From the NCBI GenBank assembly GCA_020055845.1, contig JAGVIV010000005.1:1-43151 (forward strand): a stretch of DNA of 43,151 bases, read 5' to 3'. The notes under the pieces are model-generated. The model did no database searches. It was given only the letters and a program-made list of their open reading frames with translations, and was not told where the DNA came from. Origin of the DNA: Betaproteobacteria bacterium. Lineage in GTDB: Bacteria; Pseudomonadota; Gammaproteobacteria; Burkholderiales; Gallionellaceae. Position 1 is the first letter of the stretch. Every line of letters starts with the position of its first letter. The position numbers and the translations under genes were made by a program. Of this stretch, positions 1,004 to 36,669 are shown piece by piece.

Positions 1004-2482
1004 TCATACGACCCCCGCCTTGGCAGCCGCTTCTTTGGCTGCGCGTTCTTTCGCCTCGCGCGCGGCTTTGCGTTTCGCGGCGGCCTCGGCGCGCTCGCGC
1101 TCGATACGCGCCATCCGCTCGCTGCGGGCTTCCGCCATTTTTTTAGTCGCTTCCTGTTTCAGCTTGGCGCGTTCCTGTGCGGCAAGATCACCCTTGGCAT
1201 AGTTAAAATAATGCACCAGCGGGATGTGTGCAGGACAGACGTAGGAACACGATCCGCAGGAGATACAGTCTTTCAGCCCCAGCGTGACCGCACCGGACAG
1301 ATCAGAAGTGCGGATATGTGCCGCCATCTCCAATGGCAACAGGCCGACCGGACAGGCGCGCACGCAAGTCGAACAACGAATGCACGGAGACGGCTCCGCC
1401 TGACCGATCTCGCTTGCGAGCAACGCGAGCACACCGCTTGTTCCCTTGACCACCGGCACGCTCGTGTCGGTAAATTGTTGTCCCATCATCGGCCCGCCCA
1501 ATACCAGACGGGTCGCCGGCTGCGAATAACCATCGGCGAAAGCAATCAACTCCTGCACCGGCGTACCGATCAGCGCCTCCACATTGCACGCGGTCTTGAT
1601 CGCACCGCCACTCACCGTGACGATGCGCGAAACCAATGGTCTGCCGTAACGGATAGCCTGCTGCACGGCATAAGCGGTGGCAACGTTGTGCACCAGCACG
1701 CCGATGTCGGCAGGACGGCCTCCGGCGGGAATCTCTTTGCCGGTGAGCACTTGGATAATTTGCTTCTCCGACCCCATGGGATACATGCTGGGCATAACCA
1801 CGATTTTGACCGCACCATCCGCCGCCGCGGCCTGCATCGCGGCGATAGCTTCCGGTTTGTTGTCCTCGATACCCACCAGTATTTCTTTGGCCGCAACCGC
1901 GAGTGCAATCAGACGAATACCCTCGACGATCTCTTGCGCGCGTTCGCGCATGATGCGGTCGTCACAGCTAAGGTAAGGCTCGCACTCTCCGCCGTTCATG
2001 ATGAGTGTCTGCACGCCGCTGTTGCGGCTGAGATTCAACTTAAGCGCGGCGGGAAAAGTCGCACCGCCCAAACCGACGATACCGGCAGCAGCCACGCGCG
2101 CCGCGATGTCTTCGGGTGCAAGCGCCAACGGCTCCATCACGACATCCGTCTCTATCCACTTGTCTTCACCGTCGCTTTCCAGCGTGATAGTCGGCACCGG
2201 CAAACCGGATGGGTGCGGCGCGGCATAGTCGCCCAAGGCAACGATTTTCCCCGAGGTGGGCGCATGCACGGAAGAAGAAACAGCCCCCTGCGCACCGGCG
2301 ATGAGCTGGCCTTTCAGCACAGACTCCCCGACACGCACGACCGGGGTCGCGGGTGCACCTATGTGCTGCTGCAAAGGCACGAATAATCGCTTGGGCAGAG
2401 GCAATACGCGAATGCGCCGTTGCGCCGACATCTCCTTGCGGCCTTCGGGATGCACGCCACCGCGCAGGTCAAATAGCTTCAT
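1004..2482 (-). CDS. rnfC: Electron transport complex subunit RnfC
   Basis: 492 aa. GGATFPAALKL and NGGECEPYLSCDDRIM motifs plus two 4Fe-4S motifs (CIRCSTCVRACP, CISCGSCSYVCP). ATG overlaps the rnfB stop. Confidence 0.95.
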   Translation of the reverse strand: MKLFDLRGGVHPEGRKEMSAQRRIRVLPLPKRLFVPLQQHIGAPATPVVRVGESVLKGQLIAGAQGAVSSSVHAPTSGKIVALGDYAAPHPSGLPVPTITLESDGEDKWIETDVVMEPLALAPEDIAARVAAAGIVGLGGATFPAALKLNLSRNSGVQTLIMNGGECEPYLSCDDRIMRERAQEIVEGIRLIALAVAAKEILVGIEDNKPEAIAAMQAAAADGAVKIVVMPSMYPMGSEKQIIQVLTGKEIPAGGRPADIGVLVHNVATAYAVQQAIRYGRPLVSRIVTVSGGAIKTACNVEALIGTPVQELIAFADGYSQPATRLVLGGPMMGQQFTDTSVPVVKGTSGVLALLASEIGQAEPSPCIRCSTCVRACPVGLLPLEMAAHIRTSDLSGAVTLGLKDCISCGSCSYVCPAHIPLVHYFNYAKGDLAAQERAKLKQEATKKMAEARSERMARIERERAEAAAKRKAAREAKERAAKEAAAKAGVV

Positions 2483-3012
2483 GCCGCCACCTCTTGTGGT
2501 TTATGCCAGTGCCACGATTGCAGCGTCACGGGTATGGGGTGTAACTTGATCGACTCGGTCGGGCACACGGCCTCGCATTTACCGCAGGCGGTGCAGGCTT
2601 CGCGGAACACCACATGAATCTGTTGCGCCGCACCCATGATGGCATCGGTGGGGCACACTTTGAAACAACGCGTGCAACCGATGCAGATTTCCTCTTTCAC
2701 TTCGGCAACCATCGGCACACTTTCTTTTACGCCGGAAAGATCGGCCTCGACGCCCATCTTGGCGGCCAGCACTTGCACCAATGCTTTACCGCCCGGCGGA
2801 CACAGTGTGACGGGTGCGTTGCCGTCCGCCAGCGCCTGTGCAGCCCCCGCGCAACCGGGAAAGCCGCACTGCCCGCATTGTGCCCCTGGCAACAACTGCT
2901 CGATTTCGGCAACCAGCGGATTGCCTTCGACTTTGAACACGCGGGCAGCCACACCAAGCCCCAACCCCAGCACCAAACCCAGAACCGTCAAACTCAGCAA
3001 TGCAGAAATCAT
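2479..3012 (-). CDS. rnfB: Electron transport complex subunit RnfB (ferredoxin-type)
   Basis: 177 aa. N-terminal TM, CGQCGFPGC Fe-S motif and two CxxCxxCxxxCP ferredoxin motifs. Confidence 0.95.
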   Translation of the reverse strand: MISALLSLTVLGLVLGLGLGVAARVFKVEGNPLVAEIEQLLPGAQCGQCGFPGCAGAAQALADGNAPVTLCPPGGKALVQVLAAKMGVEADLSGVKESVPMVAEVKEEICIGCTRCFKVCPTDAIMGAAQQIHVVFREACTACGKCEAVCPTESIKLHPIPVTLQSWHWHKPQEVAA

Positions 3013-3033
3013 TTTCTTTCCTCTGCTCTCAAC

Positions 3034-3615
3034 TCAATGCGAAGCCAGCCCGGCAAAACCCATAAACGCCAGCGACAACAATCCCGCCACAACAAAACCG
3101 ATAGGCGCGCCGCTGAATGCGGGCGGCACTTGCGCCAGTGTCAGCCGGATACGCAATCCGGTGAACAGCAGCATCACCAACGTAAAGCCCACCGCCGAGC
3201 CGAAGCCATACAACAAACTGTGCATAAAGCCGTTTTGCTCTTGCACATTGAGCAGCGCGATGCCCAACACCGCGCAGTTGGTGGTGATGAGCGGCAGATA
3301 AATACCCAAGACTTGATACAAACCGGGGCTGTATTTGCGGATCACCATTTCGGTGAACTGCACCACTGCGGCGATGCTGAGAATAAAAGCCAGAATGCGC
3401 AAATATGGAATTCCCAGCGGGGCCAACAACCAGTGCTCCAACATCCAGGTGACAGCGGTGGTGAGCGTCAACACAAAAGTGGTCGCCATACCCATGCCGA
3501 GCGCACCGTCCATTTTTTTGGACACACCCATAAAGGCACACAAGCCCAGAAACTTCACCAGCACCACGTTATTCACGAGTGCGGTAGCCAGCAACAACAA
3601 CAGGTATTCGCTCAT
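3034..3615 (-). CDS. rnfA: Electron transport complex subunit RnfA
   Basis: [50 protein letters not shown] is typical RnfA. The ORF-track start at 3675 is rejected in favour of ATG at 3615, because a perfect sigma-54 promoter lies at 3641-3656 with an RBS-like GAGAGGG downstream of it. Confidence 0.95.
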
Positions 3616-3640
3616 ATTGACCCTCTCCTGTCCTGCCATC

Positions 3641-3656
3641 TGCAAGCCTCGTGCCA
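3641..3656 (-). promoter_or_regulatory. Sigma-54 (-24/-12) promoter for the rnf operon
   Basis: Minus strand reads TGGCACG-AGGC-TTGCA, an exact match to the TGGCACG-N4-TTGCA consensus, 25-40 bp upstream of the rnfA ATG. Confidence 0.85.
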
Positions 3657-3762
3657 GCTCCACCTCACAAAACACGAGAACGCAGGATCAAGTGCTTGGT
3701 GCACGAGCGCACCGAAGCAGTGCAAAAAACCTTTGTCGTTGTCGGGTCTGCGCACAAACGGA

Positions 3763-3778
3763 TGTAGCAAAACCTACA
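3763..3778. promoter_or_regulatory. NifA upstream activator sequence (UAS)
   Basis: TGT-AGCAAAACCT-ACA matches TGT-N10-ACA exactly and lies between divergent nifL and rnfA. Confidence 0.65.
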
Positions 3779-3822
3779 TTTCATGCCGCATCACAAACCT
3801 TTGTTGCACACTTCCCGACACT

Positions 3823-3838
3823 GGGCATGGTTATTGCT
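3823..3838 (+). promoter_or_regulatory. Candidate sigma-54 promoter upstream of nifL
   Basis: GGGCAT-GGTTA-TTGCT has correct GG/GC spacing and two mismatches to TGGCAC-N5-TTGCW. It lies 45 bp upstream of the nifL ATG. Confidence 0.5.
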
Positions 3839-3883
3839 GATTCTTTTAATCATCAACCTTGAATCGCACACAACGGAGTTCCC

Positions 3884-5464
3884 ATGGCCCAACCACCTGC
3901 CCCATCTGCCGGCACCGAGCAGGACATGAGCAAAGAGATCCCGGCACATCTGTTCCGGCAAGCCGTCGAACAAGCCGCTTTGGCAATTTCCATCACCGAT
4001 GCGAATGCCAACATCCTGTACACCAACGCCGCGTTCCAGCGTATCAGCGGCTATGGGCACGAGGAGATTGTGGGACACAACCAATCCATCATGTCCTACC
4101 GCGTCACACCCAAGCTGGTGTACGAAACGCTGTGGGCACAGATTCAGCGCCAGCGTCCGTGGAATGGTCTGCTAGTAAATAAACGCAAGGACGGCAGCCG
4201 CTATCTGGCCGATGTCACCATCACGCCGGTGGTAAGCCGCGCAGGTATCACCACGCACTATCTCGGCATGCAGCGCGATGTGACCGAGGTGCACCGCTTG
4301 GAACACCAGGTGCAGAATCAGAAGACCCTCATCGAATCAGTGGTGGATGCGGCGCAGGTCGCCATCGTGCTGCTCGACGAAAACGAGCGTGTGCTGCTGG
4401 ATAATCAGGAATACAAAAAACTCATCGGCGATCTGGGTAAAGAGCCTGCTCTCAAATTGCTGGCCTCGCTGCGCGAACAGATGGGGGAAACTTTCGTCAA
4501 AGCCTACGACAAGCATCGCAATATCGCCGCGCGCGAGGTGGGTATAGAGATAGGCAATCGTACAACACGCTGGTTCTCGTGTGCCGTGTCATGGTTCGAG
4601 GAAAGGGATGTCGGCGCGGATGCCTTTTACGAACCCGTGCGCCGCCACTATCTGCTGCTCACCATACAGGACATCAGCGAGCTAAAACGCCAACAAGAGG
4701 CCCTGCGCATCAACGGTGTGCGCGCCCTGCTGTCCGAACAGGAACGCATCCAGAGCCTGCGCGAGACATTGGCCGGTGCGGTGTATCAACTGGAAGGCCC
4801 GCTCAATATGCTGAGCGCTGCGGCACATATGCTGGAGCGACGTCTCACCAATCAGTCTCCGCTACCCACCAAGAGTGGCGCGGAAGGCATTCCCGCCAGT
4901 GCACTCGGTGAGGCCATCCAGAAGAGCCGCGAGGCACTGGAAACTTTGCGCGCCTGCATGCCCGACGAAAGCCGCGAAACTTTGCAGCTGGTTGACCTCA
5001 ACGAAGTCTTGTCGGATGTGCTCAAACTCGCCACCGCCAGCATGCTTAATGCGGGTGTGGTGGTGGAATGGTCACCGTCGGAGAAACCCGCGCTGGTGAA
5101 CGGCCATCTGGCTCAGCTTTCGAATCTGTTCAAACAATTGCTCGCCAATGCCATCGAGGCGGTGAACGAACAGCGCGGCAAACAGCGTGAACTGCATCTC
5201 ATCTGCACCGCCCGCGCCGATCACATCGAAGTGTTTGTCGAAGACAGCGGGCCCGGCATCGCCGAAGAGTCACGCTATAAAGTATTCCAACCCTTCTTCA
5301 CCACCAAAGGCGCGGCCAAACAACATCTGGGTCTGGGCCTGGCCATGGCACAGGAAGTGGTGATCCGCCACAGTGGCACGATCGACATCGATCCCACTTA
5401 TCACAACGGTTGCCGCGTGCGCGTGCAACTGCCGTACATGGCGGGAGGAGCCAAACATGTCTAA
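3884..5464 (+). CDS. nifL: Nitrogen fixation negative regulator NifL (two PAS domains and a GHKL-type ATPase)
   Basis: 526 aa. N-terminal PAS ([36 protein letters not shown]), second PAS, C-terminal N/G boxes ([25 protein letters not shown]). Immediately upstream of and overlapping nifA. Confidence 0.92.
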
Positions 5465-7010
5465 ACCAAACATCGACGCGAACAGTAAACCCGAAGTCGA
5501 TCTGCTGCGTTCCGAACTGGAGACGCTGTATCAGGTGAGCCGCGTGCTATCCCATTCGCTCAATTTCAAAGAGACACTAGACGGTGTGCTGCACGCCCTG
5601 CACGAGGGCATGGAGCTGGAGCGCGGCATGGTGAGTCTGATCGATGCCGCAAGCGGCGAGTTACAGGTATCGCTGGTGTACGGCGTATCGGACACGGTCA
5701 CCGAAGAGGTGAGTTATCTGCCCGGCGAGGGCGTGGTGGGTAGCATACTGAAGACCGGCAACAGCATCGTCGTGGAACGCATCATGGATGAACCGCGTTT
5801 CCTGTCCAGGCTCGGCATCTATAACCCGCGCGGCGCTTTCGTCGGTGTTCCCATCCGTCTGGGCAAAAAAGTGGTCGGGGTATTGGCGGCGCAACCCGCG
5901 CCCGGCGACACGCTCCAGCTCAGTGAATACCAGCACTTTCTCGAGATGGTCGCCAATCTGATCGGTCAAAGTGTGCGTCTGTCGCAGGAAGTCGCGCAGG
6001 AAAAACAGGAGATAGTGGAAGAGCGCGATGTGCTGCGGCGCAATGTGCGCAGCCAATACGGCTTTGACAATATCATCGGCCACACCCAACCCATGCGCCG
6101 CATCTTTGAACAGGTGCGTCTGGTGGCCAAGTGGAACACCACGGTGCTCATACGCGGCGAAACCGGGACGGGTAAAGAACTTATCGCCAACGCCATTCAT
6201 TACAACTCGCCGCGCGCGCGCGGCAGCTTCGTCAAACTCAACTGTGCGGCACTGCCCGAGACCCTGCTGGAATCGGAATTGTTCGGCCACGAAAAAGGCG
6301 CGTTCACCGGTGCCGTGGCGCAGCGCAAAGGTCGTTTCGAGCAGGCGGAAGGGGGCACCGTGTTCCTCGATGAGATCGGTGAGATCTCCGCCTCATTCCA
6401 GGCAAAATTGCTGCGTGTGTTGCAGGAGGGCGAACTGGAACGTGTTGGCGGTACCCGTACAATCAAGGTCGATGTACGCATCGTCGCAGCGACCCACCGC
6501 GACCTTGAATCCGAAGTCGAATCGGGCAAGTTTCGCGAAGACTTGTACTATCGCCTCAATGTCATGCCGCTATTCCTGCCGCCTTTGCGCGAACGCATGG
6601 AAGACATCCCCGAGATCGCGCGCTTTCTGGTGGACAAGATCGGCACGCAGCAGGGACGCACGCTGACTTTGAACGAGACCGCCCTGCGCGTGCTGATGCA
6701 CCACGATTGGCCGGGCAACGTGCGCGAACTGGAGAACTGCCTGGAACGCGCATCGGTAATGACCGAGGGAAATCTGATCGACCGCGATGCCATCCTGCTC
6801 ACCGGCATCGACGAAAAGATTTCCGCCAGCCGCGGTTCCATCCAGAATCTCGATCTGGACGACCCCAATCTGGACGAACGCGAAAAAGTCATCGCCGCGC
6901 TTGAGCAGGCCGGCTGGGTACAGGCCAAAGCCGCACGCCTGCTGGACATGACCCCGCGCCAGATTGCTTACCGGATCCAGACACTCAATATCAAAGTGCG
7001 CCAGATATAG
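5457..7010 (+). CDS. nifA: Nif-specific sigma-54-dependent activator NifA (GAF, AAA+, HTH)
   Basis: [11 protein letters not shown]... with GAF domain, GETGTGKE Walker A, GAFTGA loop and C-terminal Fis-type HTH ([26 protein letters not shown]). ATG at 5457 overlaps the nifL stop; the ORF-track start at 5373 lies inside nifL. Confidence 0.93.
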
Positions 7011-29636: not shown

Positions 29637-32600
29637 ATGAACCCCACACCACACCGCATCGAAAAACTTCTGCAACAACGCATCCTCATTCTCGACGGAG
29701 CCATGGGCACCATGGTGCAGCGTTACAAACTGACCGAAGCGGACTATCGTGGCACGCGTTTCGCGGACTGGCACCGCGACCTTAAAGGCAACAACGACCT
29801 GCTGGTGATCACCAAACCGGAAGTCATCAAAGCCATCCATTGCGAATATCTGGCGGCGGGTGCGGACATCATCGAGACCAACACCTTCGGCGCAAATGCC
29901 ACCACGCTGCACGCCTACGGCATGTCATCGCTCAATTACGAGCTCAACGTGGCGGGAGCTAAGCTGGCCCGTGCAGCTTGCGACGAATACGCCACACAGG
30001 ACAAGCCGCGCTTCGTGGCGGGCGTGCTCGGCCCTACCGACAAGACCTGCACCATCTCGCCCGACGTGAACGACCCGGCCGCGCGCAACATCACTTTCGA
30101 CCAACTCGTGGCCGACTACTCCGACGCGACACGCGGCCTGATGGACGGCGGTGCAGACACCATTCTCATCGAAACTATCTTCGACACGCTCAACGCCAAG
30201 GCCGCCATTTTCGCGGTGCAGTCGGTGTTCACCGAACGCGGCACCTCGCTGCCCATCATGATCTCCGGCACCATCACCGACGCCTCCGGGCGTACGCTCA
30301 CCGGCCAAGTCACCGAGGCTTTTTACAACTCGCTGGCTCATGCCAACCCCATCTCCATCGGTTTGAACTGCGCGCTGGGTGCGGAAGAGCTGCGCCAATA
30401 TGTGCAAGAGATGTCGCGCGTCGCCAACTGCTATGTGAGCGCGCATCCCAATGCCGGACTGCCCAATCCGTTGGCCGAATCCGGCTACGACGACACGCCG
30501 GAGAACATGTCCGGCCACATCAAAGAGTGGGCGAGCAGCGGTTTCCTCAACATCATCGGCGGTTGCTGCGGTACTTCGCCCGCCTTCATCAAAGCTATCG
30601 CCGAAGTCGTCAAAGACATCCCGCCGCGCAAGATACCGAGCAACCCGGTCGAGTGCCGCCTGTCCGGTCTGGAGCCGTTCAACATTAGCGACGAATCGCT
30701 GTTCGTCAACGTGGGCGAACGCGCCAACGTCACCGGTTCGGCTAAATTCAAACGCCTCGTGCTGGAAGGCAAATACGACGAAGCACTCGAAGTCGCCAAA
30801 CAGCAGGTAGAAACCGGCGCGCAGGTGATTGACGTGAACATGGATGAAGCCATGCTCGACGGCGAAGCCGCGATGGTGAAGTTTCTCAACCTGATCGCGT
30901 CCGAGCCAGACATCTCCAAAGTGCCGCTGATGATCGACTCCTCCAAATGGAACATCATCGAAGCCGGTTTGAAATGTGTACAGGGCAAGTCCATCGTCAA
31001 CTCCATTTCGCTCAAAGAAGGCGAAGAGAATTTCATCAAATACGCCACGCTGGTACGCAAATACGGCGCGGCCGCCGTGGTGATGGCCTTCGACGAAGCG
31101 GGTCAAGCCGATACCTACAAGCGCAAGATCGACATCTGCAAACGCAGCTACGACATCCTTGTGCACAAAGTCGGCTTCCCGCCCGAAGACATCATCTTCG
31201 ACCCGAATATCTTCGCGATTGCCACCGGCATCGAAGAGCACAACAACTACGCGGTGGACTTCATCGAAGCCTGCGCGTGGATCAGAAAAAATCTGCCTTA
31301 CGCAAAGATTAGCGGCGGTGTGTCCAACGTGTCGTTCAGCTTCCGCGGCAACGAGCCGGTGCGCGAAGCGATCCACACCGTGTTCCTGTACCACGCCATC
31401 AAAGCGGGTATGAACATGGGCATCGTCAACGCCGGACAACTCGGCGTGTACGAGGAGATTCCGAAAGACCTGCGCGACGCGGTGGAAGACGTGGTGCTCA
31501 ACCGCCATCCCGATGCGGGCGAAAAACTAGTCAAGATGGCCGAGTCTGTTAAAGGCGGTGGCAAGGAACAAGTCGAAGATTTGGAATGGCGCAAAGGCAC
31601 GGTGCAGGAACGCCTTTCACACGCCTTGGTGCGTGGCATTACCACCTTCATTGTGGAAGATACCGAAGAAGCACGCCTGCAAGCCAAACTCCCGGTCGAG
31701 GTCATCGAAGGCCCACTGATGACCGGCATGAACGTGGTCGGCGATCTGTTCGGTGCAGGCAAGATGTTCCTGCCACAGGTGGTGAAATCCGCGCGCGTGA
31801 TGAAGCAGGCCGTGGCGCACCTCATTCCCTACATCGAAGCGGAAAAATTGCGCTCTGGCGATACCAGCACCAAGGGCAAGATACTGATGGCGACGGTCAA
31901 AGGCGACGTGCACGACATTGGCAAGAACATCGTCACCGTGGTGTTGCAGTGCAACAACTTCGAAGTCATCAACATGGGCGTGATGGTGCCCGCCCAGCAG
32001 ATTCTCGATGCGGCGCGTGAACACAAGGTCGATATCATCGGTCTCTCCGGCCTCATCACCCCGTCGCTGGAAGAAATGGCGCACGTGGCGAAAGAGATGG
32101 AACGCCAAGGCTTCAAGATACCGCTGCTCATCGGCGGCGCGACCACTTCGCGTGTGCATACTGCCGTGAAAATTGAACCCAACTACCCAAGCGGCACTGT
32201 GGTGTACGTCACCGATGCCTCACGCGCCGTTGGCGTGTGCAGCAACCTGTTGAGCAACACCACGCGCGACAGCTACATCCGCGAACTCAAGGCCGACTAT
32301 CAGGCGGCGCGCGACCAGCACGAAGGCAAAAAGGGCAAAGCAAGTTATGTCTCCTTGGACGAAGCACGCAAACATGGCTTGAAGACCGACTGGAAAAAAG
32401 TCACCCCGACCAAACCCAAGCTGCTCGGCGTGCAGAAGCTGGAGAACTATCCGCTCGATATCCTCGTGGACTTCATTGACTGGACACCGTTCTTCCAAGC
32501 CTGGGAGCTGGCCGGACGTTACCCGAAGATTCTGCAAGACGAAGTGGTGGGCGTGGAAGCGAGCAAGCTGTTCGCCGATGCACAAGCCATGCTAAGCAAG

Positions 32601-33323
32601 ATCGTCAAAGAGAAATGGCTCAGCGCCAACGCCGTGTTCGGCCTGTTCCCTGCCAACACAGTGAACAGTGACGACATCGAAATCTACACCGACGACAAGC
32701 GTAAGAACGTGGCGATGACATGGCACAACCTGCGCCAACAAACCAAAAAACCAGCCGACATCCCCAACTACTGTCTGGCCGATTACATCGCGCCCAAAGA
32801 CAGCAAGGTGCAGGATTACATCGGCGGCTTCGCGGTTACCACCGGCCTCGGCATCGAAAAGAAGATGAAGGAATTCGAAAAAGCCAACGACGACTACAGC
32901 GCCATCATGCTGCAAGCACTGGCGGACCGCCTCGCCGAAGCTTTCGCCGAACACCTGCACCTGCGCGTGCGCCGCGAGTTCTGGGGCTACGCTGCAGATG
33001 AAGGCTTAAGCAACGACGACCTCATCACCGAAAAATATCGCGGTATCCGCCCCGCCCCCGGCTACCCCGCCTGCCCCGAGCACAGCGAAAAAGGCCCGCT
33101 GTTCGAGCTGCTGCAAGCAACGAAGAACGCGGACATCACGCTCACTGAAAGCTTCGCCATGCTGCCTACCGCAGCGGTGAGCGGCTTCTACTTTTCGCAC
33201 CCGCAAGCGCAATACTTCGCCACGGGCAAGGTGGATAAGGATCAGGTGGCGGATTACGCCAAGCGCAAGGGCTGGACGGTGGAAGAGGCGGAGCGGTGGT
33301 TGGCACCGGTGTTGAGTTATTGA
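29637..33323 (+). CDS. metH: Cobalamin-dependent methionine synthase MetH
   Basis: 1228 aa. Hcy-binding ([23 protein letters not shown]), pterin ([10 protein letters not shown]), B12 ([10 protein letters not shown]) and AdoMet activation domains ([22 protein letters not shown]). Confidence 0.97.
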
Positions 33324-33335
33324 TGGAGTAAGAGA

Positions 33336-33749
33336 ATGGAAACAGTTAAAGAATTTATGCAAAGTTTCTTCGCGGAGCGAGCGGCAATAGATAGAGCCGC
33401 TGAAGCAAGAGGCGCTCCATTCGTGGAGAAGTACTATACAACTGAATACTTGGCCGCTAGCAGAAGAGTTCATGACAAAGCGCATACCTACGGAAAATTG
33501 ATTCCGTCGGTTATTTTGCAAGTGAATATCAGCGATAGCACTGCGACAGTTATTACGTCAGAACCAAGTTATGAGACTTCGGAACGCCATATCTATAAGT
33601 TGCGCAAAGCCACTAAGGGCTGGCAAATTGATCAGCGAGGGGACGAGTGCTATTTATGTGATGGAACAGGTGTATTCCAGGGTGAAACTTGCAACAAATG
33701 CGATGGAAAGAAATGGAGGTATTCCTCGGCATCCGAAGGACGAGATTGA
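33336..33749 (+). CDS. Hypothetical protein with NTF2-like appearance and C-terminal DnaJ-like zinc motif
   Basis: 137 aa, low-GC ORF directly after metH. C-terminal CYLCDGTGVFQGETCNKCDGKKW (two CxxCxG repeats). NTF2-like fold is a guess. Confidence 0.65.
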   Translation: METVKEFMQSFFAERAAIDRAAEARGAPFVEKYYTTEYLAASRRVHDKAHTYGKLIPSVILQVNISDSTATVITSEPSYETSERHIYKLRKATKGWQIDQRGDECYLCDGTGVFQGETCNKCDGKKWRYSSASEGRD

Positions 33750-34228
33750 TGTATAACTTAATAAATTTGGACGAGGCGAAATATGAACTTGTTGCCTCGT
33801 TTCGAAAGGTAGCTGCGCTGGCGGGTGTTCTTTTACCAGAGGATGCTATTGAGATTAGCCATTGGGGCACCCAACATATAGTAAAGCCCCTCAGCAAGGA
33901 CAACATGGCTATTTACGTCTTTGTATTAAATGGCAGGTGTTTAAAGGTCGGCAAGGTCGGATCGAAAAGCCAGGCTCGATATATCAGTCATCATTACAAT
34001 CCTCTGAGTTCCAAAAGCAATTTAGCAAAATCAATACTTGAGCATCGCGATGACTCTAATTTTTCTGGTGTAACTGAGGAGAATGTTGGCGAATGGATCA
34101 AGAAAAATGTGGATCGCGTGAATTTTATTTTGAATAAAGAGGCGGGGATTTCTACACTTAATTTATTTGAATCGTTCCTGCAATGTCGACTGAACCCTTT
34201 ATTCGAGGGCTTTCAAAGCCAGCGATAG
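33749..34228 (+). CDS. GIY-YIG-like domain protein
   Basis: MYNLINLDEAKYE...MAIYVFVLNGRCLKVGKVGSKSQARYISHHYNPLSSKSNLAKSIL...LNLFESFLQCRLNPLFEG: GIY-YIG-like strand pattern with conserved R and E positions. ATG overlaps the preceding stop by one base (TGATG). Confidence 0.65.
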   Translation: MYNLINLDEAKYELVASFRKVAALAGVLLPEDAIEISHWGTQHIVKPLSKDNMAIYVFVLNGRCLKVGKVGSKSQARYISHHYNPLSSKSNLAKSILEHRDDSNFSGVTEENVGEWIKKNVDRVNFILNKEAGISTLNLFESFLQCRLNPLFEGFQSQR

Positions 34229-34295
34229 TCAGGGTGGGCACTCGTGCCCACGCGGAAAGAATCGGTGGGCAACGCCGCGCTTTTGCCCACCCTAC
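34229..34295. repeat. REP-like palindromic repeat
   Basis: CAGGGTGGGCACTCGTGCCCACGCGG...CGGTGGGCAACGCCGCGCTTTTGCCCACCCTAC: nested inverted repeats (GTGGGCAC/GTGCCCAC and GGTGGGCA/TGCCCACC). Confidence 0.75.
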
Positions 34296-34322
34296 AATAA
34301 TCATCAACCATAGGGAACCAGC

Positions 34323-35009
34323 ATGACTACTCTCACCATTATCGACACCCAACTTGGCGAAGGCGCGGAAGCGCAAGCCGGACAAACCGTCATCGTGCAT
34401 TACACCGGCTGGCTGTTCGACGAAAGCGCACCGGACAACAAGGGCGCGAAATTCGACAGTTCGCTCGACCGCAACGACCCGTTCGATTTCCCGCTCGGCG
34501 CGGGTCATGTCATCCAAGGTTGGGATGAAGGCGTACAAGGCATGAAAGAAGGCGGACACCGCACCCTCATCATTCCCGCAGAGATGGGGTATGGCGCGAG
34601 CGGTGCGGGCGACGACATTCCACCCAATGCGACCTTGGTGTTTGAAGTGAAGCTGCTCAAAGTGATCAAGACCGACATCACCGACACCAAGCTCGGCGAA
34701 GGTGAAGAGGCCACGGCTGGACAACAGGTAACCGTGCATTACACTGGCTGGCTGTTCGACAAGAATGCCGCAGACAACAAAGGCACGAAGTTCGACAGTT
34801 CGCGCGACCGCGACGAGCCATTCGATTTCCCGCTCGGCATGGGTCGCGTCATCTCGGGTTGGGATACCGGCGTGCAAGGCATGAAGGTGGGCGGACAGCG
34901 CACACTGGTGATTCCGCCGGAGATGGGTTACGGACGACGCGGCGCGGGCGGCGTGATTCCACCGAATGCGACGCTGGTGTTCGATGTTGAGCTACTGGGT
35001 GTGCAGTAA
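34323..35009 (+). CDS. Tandem two-domain FKBP-type peptidyl-prolyl isomerase
   Basis: Two FKBP domains in one ORF, each with VHYTGWLFD...FDSS.DR..PFDFPLG.G.VI.GWD.GVQGMK.GG.RTL.IP.EMGYG...[13 protein letters not shown]. Confidence 0.92.
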
Positions 35010-35044
35010 CGCACCGTTCTTACAATGAAAAAATTGAGATTCAA

Positions 35045-35494
35045 ATGAAGAAATTTCCCAAGTTGTTACTCGCGCTGTTGCTATCCGCCGCATGCGTGAC
35101 CACCGCCTGCTCGCAGCAGGATTTAGCCCCTATGGAGAACAGTAAAGTGGCCGAACTCATCAAAAACGATATGACCAAAGGCGATGGCGCGGAAGCCAAA
35201 GCCGGCCAACAGGTGACGGTGCATTACACCGGCTGGCTGTATGACGAGACCGGCCCAGAGAACAAGGGTAAGAAGTTCGACAGCTCGCGCGATCGCGGCA
35301 CGCCGTTTGCTTTTTCGCTCGGCGCCGGGGAAGTCATCAAGGGCTGGGACGAGGGCGTGCAGGGCATGAAGGTGGGCGGTCATCGCACGCTTGTCATTCC
35401 GCCCGCGATGGGCTACGGCAAGCGTGGTGCGGGCGGTGTCATCCCGCCGAATGCAACGCTAGTATTTGATGTCGAGTTACTGGGCGTGAATTAA
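35045..35494 (+). CDS. FKBP-type peptidyl-prolyl isomerase, putative lipoprotein
   Basis: 149 aa with lipoprotein-like signal ([16 protein letters not shown]) and one FKBP domain. Confidence 0.92.
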
Positions 35495-35567
35495 TACAAT
35501 TTGCACTGCGTAATTTTGATGCAGTGAGAGTTGTATAATGAGCCTAAATGTTTGCAGGGAGAATCCA

Positions 35568-35756
35568 ATGCAAGTCGCCAAACAACAAGTCGCTTCAATG
35601 CTTCAGACGCTGCCGGACGATTGCTCACTGGAAGATATTCAATATCACCTCTATGTCATTGAGAAGATAAAAAATGGCGTGGCGCGAGCCGAAACAGAGG
35701 GTGCGATTTCTCAGCAAAACGCAGAGCAGCAATTGGCCAAATGGGTACGCGAGTAA
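35568..35756 (+). CDS. Putative type II antitoxin (partner of RelE/ParE toxin)
   Basis: Small ORF MQVAKQQVASMLQTLPDDCSLEDIQYHLYVIEKIKNGVARAETEGAISQQNAEQQLAKWVRE overlapping the toxin start. Confidence 0.8.
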   Translation: MQVAKQQVASMLQTLPDDCSLEDIQYHLYVIEKIKNGVARAETEGAISQQNAEQQLAKWVRE

Positions 35757-36043
35757 GTTGGTCGCCAGAGGCGATTGACGATGTAGATACCATCGCGGCT
35801 TATATTGCCAAGGATTCGCCATACTACGCTTCCGCAGTGGTGAAGAAAATTCTCGATACGGCTAATAGCCTCAACAGCTTCCCGTACATTGGCCCGATTG
35901 TCCCCGAACTTGGCGAGCCGGAATTTCGTGAACGATTTGTTTACAGCTATCGGCTGATTTACCGCGTGCTTGATGAAGAAGTATTGATCGTTGCGGTGAT
36001 ACACGGACGGCGATTGCTCGATCCGGTAACGTTGTTACGGTAA
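35741..36043 (+). CDS. Type II toxin, RelE/ParE family
   Basis: MGTRVSWSPEAIDDVDTIAAYIAKDSPYYASAVVKKILDTANSLNSFPYIGPIVPELGEPEFRERFVYSYRLIYRVLDEEVLIVAVIHGRR. Confidence 0.9.
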   Translation: MGTRVSWSPEAIDDVDTIAAYIAKDSPYYASAVVKKILDTANSLNSFPYIGPIVPELGEPEFRERFVYSYRLIYRVLDEEVLIVAVIHGRRLLDPVTLLR

Positions 36044-36050
36044 CTACGCA

Positions 36051-36090
36051 GCAATAAAGAAGGGCAGCCTAGGCTGCCCTTCTTTATTGC
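36051..36090. terminator. Bidirectional intrinsic terminator between convergent genes
   Basis: Perfect 20+20 bp inverted repeat GCAATAAAGAAGGGCAGCCT/AGGCTGCCCTTCTTTATTGC; GC core flanked by A- and T-rich arms. Confidence 0.9.
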
Positions 36091-36108
36091 GCAACACACG
36101 CTGCAGCG

Positions 36109-36669
36109 TCAATCTTCCCAGTCGGGATAGTTGGGAATCTTCACTGTGTCTTCGTCGAATACGCCTTTGGCCGCCTGGGTGTGGCAGGCATCGCAGTAGC
36201 TCAGCGATTTCACGTCTTTGTTGCCCTTGATCATTTTGTCGGGAATCTCGTGGTGCTTGCGTTTGATGTAGCGTACTTCGGTAATGCGCAACGGGGCTTC
36301 GATGTTTTCCATGGCAATGGCGATCTTGCGCGAGCGTTTGTGGTAGCTCTTGTCCGCCGCATTCGCCAATGCATAGTCGCGGATGACCTTGAGGGTGTCG
36401 GCATCCAGTTCTGCATTTTCACCGAAGTGTTCGCTCAGGGCTTTGTCGTTAAGCAGCTTTTCCCACGACTTGCTCGGCAGCAAGCCCGGCTGGTAAGCGA
36501 AGTGGCAGGAGCCGCATTCGTCCTGGTATTGTTTGTTGTCGACGGGCACGAGTTCTTTTTGACGGAACGGGGTGACCACGGCTTGCAGCAGGCTTTCCTC
36601 GGCCACGGCGATGCCGCTCAGGCTCAGGAGTCCGGCCAGCAGTACGGCGCTTTTATATCGCTTGTTCAT
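36109..36669 (-). CDS. Diheme cytochrome c (periplasmic)
   Basis: Signal peptide and two CxxCH motifs (CGSCH, CDACH). Confidence 0.88.
   Translation of the reverse strand: MNKRYKSAVLLAGLLSLSGIAVAEESLLQAVVTPFRQKELVPVDNKQYQDECGSCHFAYQPGLLPSKSWEKLLNDKALSEHFGENAELDADTLKVIRDYALANAADKSYHKRSRKIAIAMENIEAPLRITEVRYIKRKHHEIPDKMIKGNKDVKSLSYCDACHTQAAKGVFDEDTVKIPNYPDWED

Follow-up and report, generated by a model that had tools for sequence, protein, structure and literature searches.

A predicted stand-alone GIY-YIG-type nuclease of an uncatalogued family, located in a metH–FKBP hotspot of variable genes in Gallionellaceae

We analyzed two overlapping genes, here called A and B, in a 43,151-nucleotide stretch of DNA (the window) from a Betaproteobacteria bacterium of the family Gallionellaceae (GenBank assembly GCA_020055845.1, contig JAGVIV010000005.1). 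The genes lie between metH and a gene for a peptidyl-prolyl isomerase, with the following arrangement in window coordinates:

29637..33323, forward strand: metH (cobalamin-dependent methionine synthase), taken from the ORF list and identified by sequence; the conserved upstream anchor
33324..34322, no strand: variable slot from the metH stop to the FKBP start, 999 bp, GC 0.45, with unrelated genes in other Gallionellaceae
33336..33749, forward strand: gene A (protein P0001), 137 aa, stop TGA at 33747–33749, with a C-terminal Cys4 (DnaJ/anti-TRAP-like) zinc knuckle
33648..33716, forward strand: the Cys4 knuckle of A (C105-x2-C108 ... C119-x2-C122, W127), invariant in five A-like sequences
33749..34228, forward strand: gene B (protein P0002), 159 aa, start ATG at 33749, a predicted GIY-YIG-type nuclease of an uncatalogued family
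34230..34296, no strand: inverted repeat GGGTGGGCA...TGCCCACCC between B and the FKBP gene, REP/terminator-like and stable (fold z −3.8)
34323..35009, forward strand: two-domain FKBP-type peptidyl-prolyl isomerase, the conserved downstream anchor, which recurs downstream in the slots of relatives

A preliminary description of this DNA had reported two ORFs overlapping as TGATG, more AT-rich than metH upstream and the two FKBP genes downstream, and had suggested that they were recently acquired. The neighbors were as described, and A and B share exactly one base. The GC and GC3 values were 0.454 and 0.428 for A and 0.415 and 0.438 for B, as compared with 0.581 and 0.762 for metH and 0.58–0.59 and 0.69–0.71 for the FKBP genes, so that a GC3 of about 0.43 stands against 0.69–0.76 in the flanks. 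Recent acquisition was likewise upheld: the pair was missing in all seven of the other genomes of the same genus, the slot holds unrelated low-GC genes in relatives, and the pair is not core, B being present in only 3 of 158 Gallionellaceae genomes, at three unrelated loci of which one is an integron cassette.

The metH–FKBP slot is a family-wide hotspot of variable genes. Orthologues of metH were found in 142 of the 158 Gallionellaceae genomes, and 101 metH 3′ regions were read (loci L059–L078 and L109–L188), 94 of them with a recognizable downstream FKBP gene. The slot held no ORF of at least 60 aa in 28 of these 94 genomes and one or more such ORFs in the other 66. Among slots of 250 bp or more, all 67 had a lower GC content than the metH end (median 0.44 versus 0.61). 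Of the 66 filled slots, we counted about 27 with a recognizable nuclease, toxin–antitoxin or defense-type gene; among these are HNH genes (with homing-associated repeats in some cases), PIN, BrnT, HicA, ParE, HEPN/nucleotidyltransferase, Mrr, GmrSD and NYN genes, an AAA gene with an AbiLi match and the second small GIY-YIG-like gene described below; PaiB-like, PhzF-like and membrane proteins were also encoded there. Not every junction is variable, since the gap between the DUF486-like gene and mpl, examined as a control in the same loci, did not exceed 193 bp in any of 10 genomes. The aroC 3′ end (L079–L108) is another variable junction of the family; it is empty in G016, G002, G001 and G005, filled in others and occupied by B in G025. 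The metH slot resembles the MGE-free hotspots flanked by core genes (PMC5635113) in that variable genes turn over between conserved genes without an integrase; it differs in that one to three genes are docked at the metH 3′ end and that some inserts have metH 3′ duplicates behind them. A second small GIY-YIG-like gene, of 91 aa and recognized by motif only, was seen in the metH slot of seven genomes (L114, L116, L120, L123, L129, L145 and L067); it is unrelated to B by profile and is truncated to 66 aa in G003.

In gene A, the CxxCxG...CxxCxG knuckle noted in the preliminary description proved genuine: it reads CYLCDGTG...CNKCDGKKW (residues 105–127), and its four cysteines were kept in all A-like sequences found. 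Within its own family, P0001 had relatives in only two genomes, amounting to four sequences, three in G500 (one stand-alone and two as repeats) and one in G502, and no match was obtained against plasmids, phages, viral contigs and 369 genomes of the class. The two repeats lie in a 439-aa protein with a twin-arginine-like signal (L287, 6097–7416). No family was assigned to A by Pfam, NCBIfam, PHROGs or PADLOC; its only PADLOC hit was PDC-M01B (E 0.0017) over the knuckle, which weakly resembles the knuckles of DnaJ and anti-TRAP. A weak Lumazine_bd_2 match (E = 0.019) was found in one of five A-like sequences, and the AlphaFold model of A, built from a single sequence, was unusable (pLDDT 46.6).

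The preliminary description had also proposed a coupled nuclease/partner or toxin-immunity pair. According to such a reading, B would be a toxic nuclease neutralized by A, an NTF2-like protein with a Cys4 knuckle, in a toxin-immunity or toxin–antitoxin arrangement. Co-translation is implied by the one-base overlap, toxin–antitoxin modules are common in the slot, and G500 has several A-like copies, as is often the case with immunity genes. However, no A-like neighbor was found beside any of the approximately 30 B homologues and no B beside the four A-like sequences in the two other genomes. The A–B combination is so far confined to the source genome, and the partners do not co-occur elsewhere. 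Since the relatives of A never adjoin B, the pairing is unsupported; the closest B homologues also stand alone, and one of the A-like proteins combines two repeats with a Tat-like signal sequence. We consider a toxin-immunity pair quite unlikely.

Gene B belongs to a real family of about 30 diverse homologues with 33–54% identity, spanning Proteobacteria, Firmicutes, Bacteroidota, Spirochaetes and phages, the hosts including Nitrosomonadales, Mollicutes, Chryseobacterium, Poribacteria, Clostridia, Butyrivibrio and a spirochaete. The closest known homologue (54%) lies on a phage contig, L277. A search with P0002 matched 2 of 60 relatives (the source genome G000 itself and G025), one plasmid and one phage, whereas alignment-based searches yielded 21 B loci in genome contigs and 2, later 10, viral loci; the viral collection gave no match to P0002 alone and did match the alignment queries. 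A Micrarchaeota MAG record with B is probably mis-binned, its locus being identical to a phage record. No model passed for B in Pfam, NCBIfam, PHROGs or PADLOC scans, the PADLOC defense models included, and none of 21 B members matched Pfam at E<1.

In an alignment of 30 B sequences, H43, L48, F58, G68, S74, R77, H82, Y83, S90, L92, S95, W116, I117, R123, G133, L137, P150 and G154 were invariant, and Y56, K66, K69, E141 and E153 were nearly so. Only L286 departs strongly from this pattern: Y56, K66, E141 and E153 are all missing from it, as expected of a copy in decay. The GIY-YIG-like residues of the preliminary description are among these positions, H82-Y83 included; since they are invariant or nearly invariant across the alignment, their presence is not due to chance. 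The motif positions in the window are as follows:

33914..33955, forward strand: Y56-x-F58 at the GIY position and L65-K-V-G68-K69 at the YIG position of B, conserved and aligned with GVYIF...YIGKA of UvrC
33977..33979, forward strand: R77 of B, putative catalytic Arg, invariant and in an AlphaFold helix (76–80)
34169..34171, forward strand: E141 of B, putative metal-binding Glu in helix 134–148, lost only in the degenerate L286 and aligned with the Glu of ILEANL..P in UvrC

The AlphaFold model of B (pLDDT 89.7, pTM 0.86), for which row L003 was omitted, had a core in the order strand–strand–helix–helix–helix–strand–helix. This arrangement is that of the GIY-YIG fold, as in I-TevI and UvrC. 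Y56 and K66/G68 lie on two hairpin strands (52–60 and 63–70) and place the GIY and YIG elements about 10 residues apart, R77, kept in all 30 sequences, lies in the helix after the second strand, and the nearly invariant E141 lies in the helix that follows the third strand (122–129); the corresponding Arg and Glu are conserved in UvrC (PMC12923530). When the B profile was searched against 177,635 PDB sequences, the best matches were UvrC GIY-YIG domains at a non-significant E of 0.35, in two collinear blocks, LAPEEPGVYIFKNKGVPIYIGKA and ILEANLIKKYRPKYN, that cover GIY/YIG and the catalytic-Glu helix. With hhalign, B aligned with UvrC (P 0.018, above 40 of 40 column-shuffled controls) and with T5orf172 (P 0.024, above 39 of 40), the motifs being in register in both cases. 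Foldseek returned no GIY-YIG structure from the PDB for the B model, and among its weak matches in a viral library several were named GIY-YIG; FKBP-like PDB matches were rejected as spurious (TM about 0.17). The B profile matched neither the small GIY-YIG-like protein encoded in the metH slot of relatives nor other small GIY-YIG proteins.

B shares with the UvrC GIY-YIG domain the collinear GVY..F...YIGKA and ILEANL..P blocks, catalytic Glu included. It differs in that its 159 residues form a single domain, which has an additional helix and strand at the N terminus and an EGFxSQ tail at the C terminus, and in that Lys takes the place of the first Tyr of YIG. T5orf172/MUG113 proteins (PF10544, PF13455) resemble B in this KIG variant, which occurs in T5orf172 members, and in their sporadic, phage-borne distribution; they differ in that the 21 B members lack any such Pfam match. 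Together, the topology, the residues and the UvrC and hhalign alignments provide good but formally non-significant evidence for the preliminary assignment of B as a GIY-YIG protein. The fold class is well supported, and B is very probably a member of the superfamily.

Two alternatives concern what B does. The resemblance could be superficial, with B a non-nuclease or the pair a decaying passenger of no function, as the negative PDB Foldseek search and the sub-threshold profile matches would allow; we regard this as highly improbable, given that the residues fitting an active site are strictly conserved across phyla and lost only in L286, which is already degenerate. B could instead be a DNA-repair or phage-replication nuclease that, like UvrC or a flap- or junction-cutting enzyme, benefits its own element rather than serving in defense. 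The UvrC nuclease domain is indeed its best sequence resemblance, but the distribution of B is sporadic and cargo-like, B lacks the other domains of UvrC and G000 has a UvrC of its own, and we judge this very unlikely.

B homologues mostly stand alone, and their contexts identify B as mobile cargo, since they are integrase-adjacent (L279–L281, where B follows a phage-type integrase by 10 bp, and L008, where it adjoins an integrase region), defense-flanked (L278 and L004) or cassette-like (L289). In L278, B lies between AbiEii-like and Mrr-like genes, the names being read by eye. G504 (L289) carries a truncated IntI-type integron integrase (5350–5850) with B as the next gene, and attC-like imperfect inverted repeats ending in (A)CGTT(A/G)G follow successive genes of the array (1978–5850); the B homologue has both marks of an integron cassette, an adjacent integrase and an attC after each gene, with attC judged by eye. 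The gene family, its conserved residues and its mobility, like the hotspot, were established by computation. In Clostridia (L019 and L021), the genes flanking B encode a macro-domain protein and a VWA protein, with an ADP-ribosylglycohydrolase nearby, and a phage version of this cluster, L004, lies beside type III- and type I-like restriction-modification genes. The order macro-domain/HTH gene, B, VWA gene, in some cases with an ADP-ribosylglycohydrolase, was seen in L004, L019–L021 and L023 and recurs in Clostridia, and it possibly represents an ADP-ribosylation-linked system. In a Poribacteria MAG, a TonB-dependent receptor continues in frame, at its C-terminal end, into a B homologue (L009, 2923–6462).

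The same contexts bring in the main rival to a defense function, next to which toxin-immunity is the less likely: B could be a free-standing homing endonuclease that cuts B-less alleles near its own insertion point and is copied in by repair, so that sites after stop codons (metH and aroC) and between essential phage genes would reflect target choice. Phage copies of B are found between the tail-chaperone and tape-measure genes (L010/L027, L028 and L285) or adjoin terminase or portal genes (L277 and L286), and such sites are typical of homing nucleases (PMC10448857). Its insertion site recurs among some phages (L010, L028 and L285), in L006 it starts 1 nt past the aroC stop, and the metH slot also hosts HNH genes with homing-associated repeats and the second small GIY-YIG-like gene. 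B thereby resembles the free-standing phage homing endonucleases (Seg, I-TevI and T5orf172 HEGs; PMC10448857) in nuclease type and in insertion by essential phage genes; it differs from them in that its loci have no common target, even within one bacterial family, and in that an integron-cassette form exists. Moreover, most B members lack a typical homing DNA-binding module, some having an N-terminal wHTH-like region (an extension in L011, L012, L016 and L017), and the slot also accepts genes other than nucleases. We consider homing unlikely.

The reading we favor, to which we give about an even chance, treats B as a small, stand-alone member of the GIY-YIG endonucleases whose family is uncatalogued; it travels as single-gene mobile cargo and most likely cuts incoming phage or plasmid DNA. 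We infer nuclease activity, its target, a defense role and any role of A. Phages, integrative elements, integrons and also hotspots in chromosomes serve as carriers of B, with Y56, K66/G68, R77, H82/Y83 and E141 forming a putative single-metal active site and the conserved N-terminal ~50 residues and the C-terminal EGFxSQ tail probably steering substrate binding. In this genome it would have arrived together with A in the metH–FKBP slot, a small toxin/nuclease/defense hotspot, and A, presumably co-transcribed, may help or restrain B here but is not a regular partner. The defense role is plausible by guilt by association, since the slot neighbors by orthology include HNH, Mrr, GmrSD, PIN, BrnT, HicA, ParE, HEPN and AbiLi-type genes. 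Counting against this reading are the UvrC E-value, the blank PDB Foldseek search, the unmatched Pfam and PADLOC models, the Lys in YIG, the many homologues within structural modules of phages, a location shared with homing nucleases, and the metabolic and membrane genes (PaiB-like, PhzF-like) in the slots.

Two known defense nucleases offer comparisons. CMoRE (PD-T4-3, PMC12923530) is likewise a single gene with a GIY-YIG core closest to UvrC, and defense, its role, is only proposed for B; CMoRE senses modification through a separate domain at its C terminus and has the motif form GIYxY-YIG, and no homology between it and B is claimed. SNIPE (DUF4041 plus GIY-YIG, PMC13190303) is a defense nuclease that shares GIY-YIG with a catalytic Glu, but it has a membrane anchor and DUF4041, neither of which was recognized in B, which has no Pfam matches. 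As a predicted nuclease family, B has been missed by current defense and domain databases despite its presence in several phyla and many vehicle types, and the metH slot provides a short list of candidate defense genes.

Six genomes (G497, G530, G467, G468, G514 and G017) have a second, partial copy of the metH 3′ end on the downstream side of the insert, 49–188 bp long and with 75–94% identity. The duplicate in G497 runs as far as the stop codon, and between it and FKBP lies a second cargo gene. The slot of the source genome has no such metH 3′ repeat of its own, and no clear nearest-neighbor switch, as a trace of imported 3′ sequence, was found along the last 600 bp of its metH. The duplicates would fit single-crossover entry of a DNA circle bearing a metH 3′ end and cargo, which suggests homology-driven stacking; alternatively, they may reflect insertion with a long target duplication, a process that has reportedly been proposed for restriction-modification genes. 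A broader proposal, doubtful and offered tentatively, is that B is the founding member of a family of mobile, single-gene GIY-YIG nucleases that act against phages and extend across phyla, and that the Gallionellaceae metH 3′ end is an integrase-free docking site, where cassettes with their own metH 3′ end would recombine by homology and stack (cargo, metH 3′ fragment, older cargo, FKBP) into a serial archive of defense and toxin genes. With 94 genomes carrying both anchors, the slot is a compact and well-replicated natural hotspot in relatives of iron oxidizers, and the duplicated metH ends make an integrase-free mechanism of gene acquisition directly testable.

Two further elements were observed around the pair. 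No Rfam RNA was found in 33000–36500, a region that includes the inverted repeat at 34230–34296; elements like this repeat precede FKBP in G020, and another sequence version occurs in G004 (before FKBP) and after B in L002. Downstream of the second FKBP gene, a ParE-type toxin gene (PF05016) with an upstream partner lies at 35538–36043, and the same module was seen next to FKBP in G004 and within the metH slot of G501.
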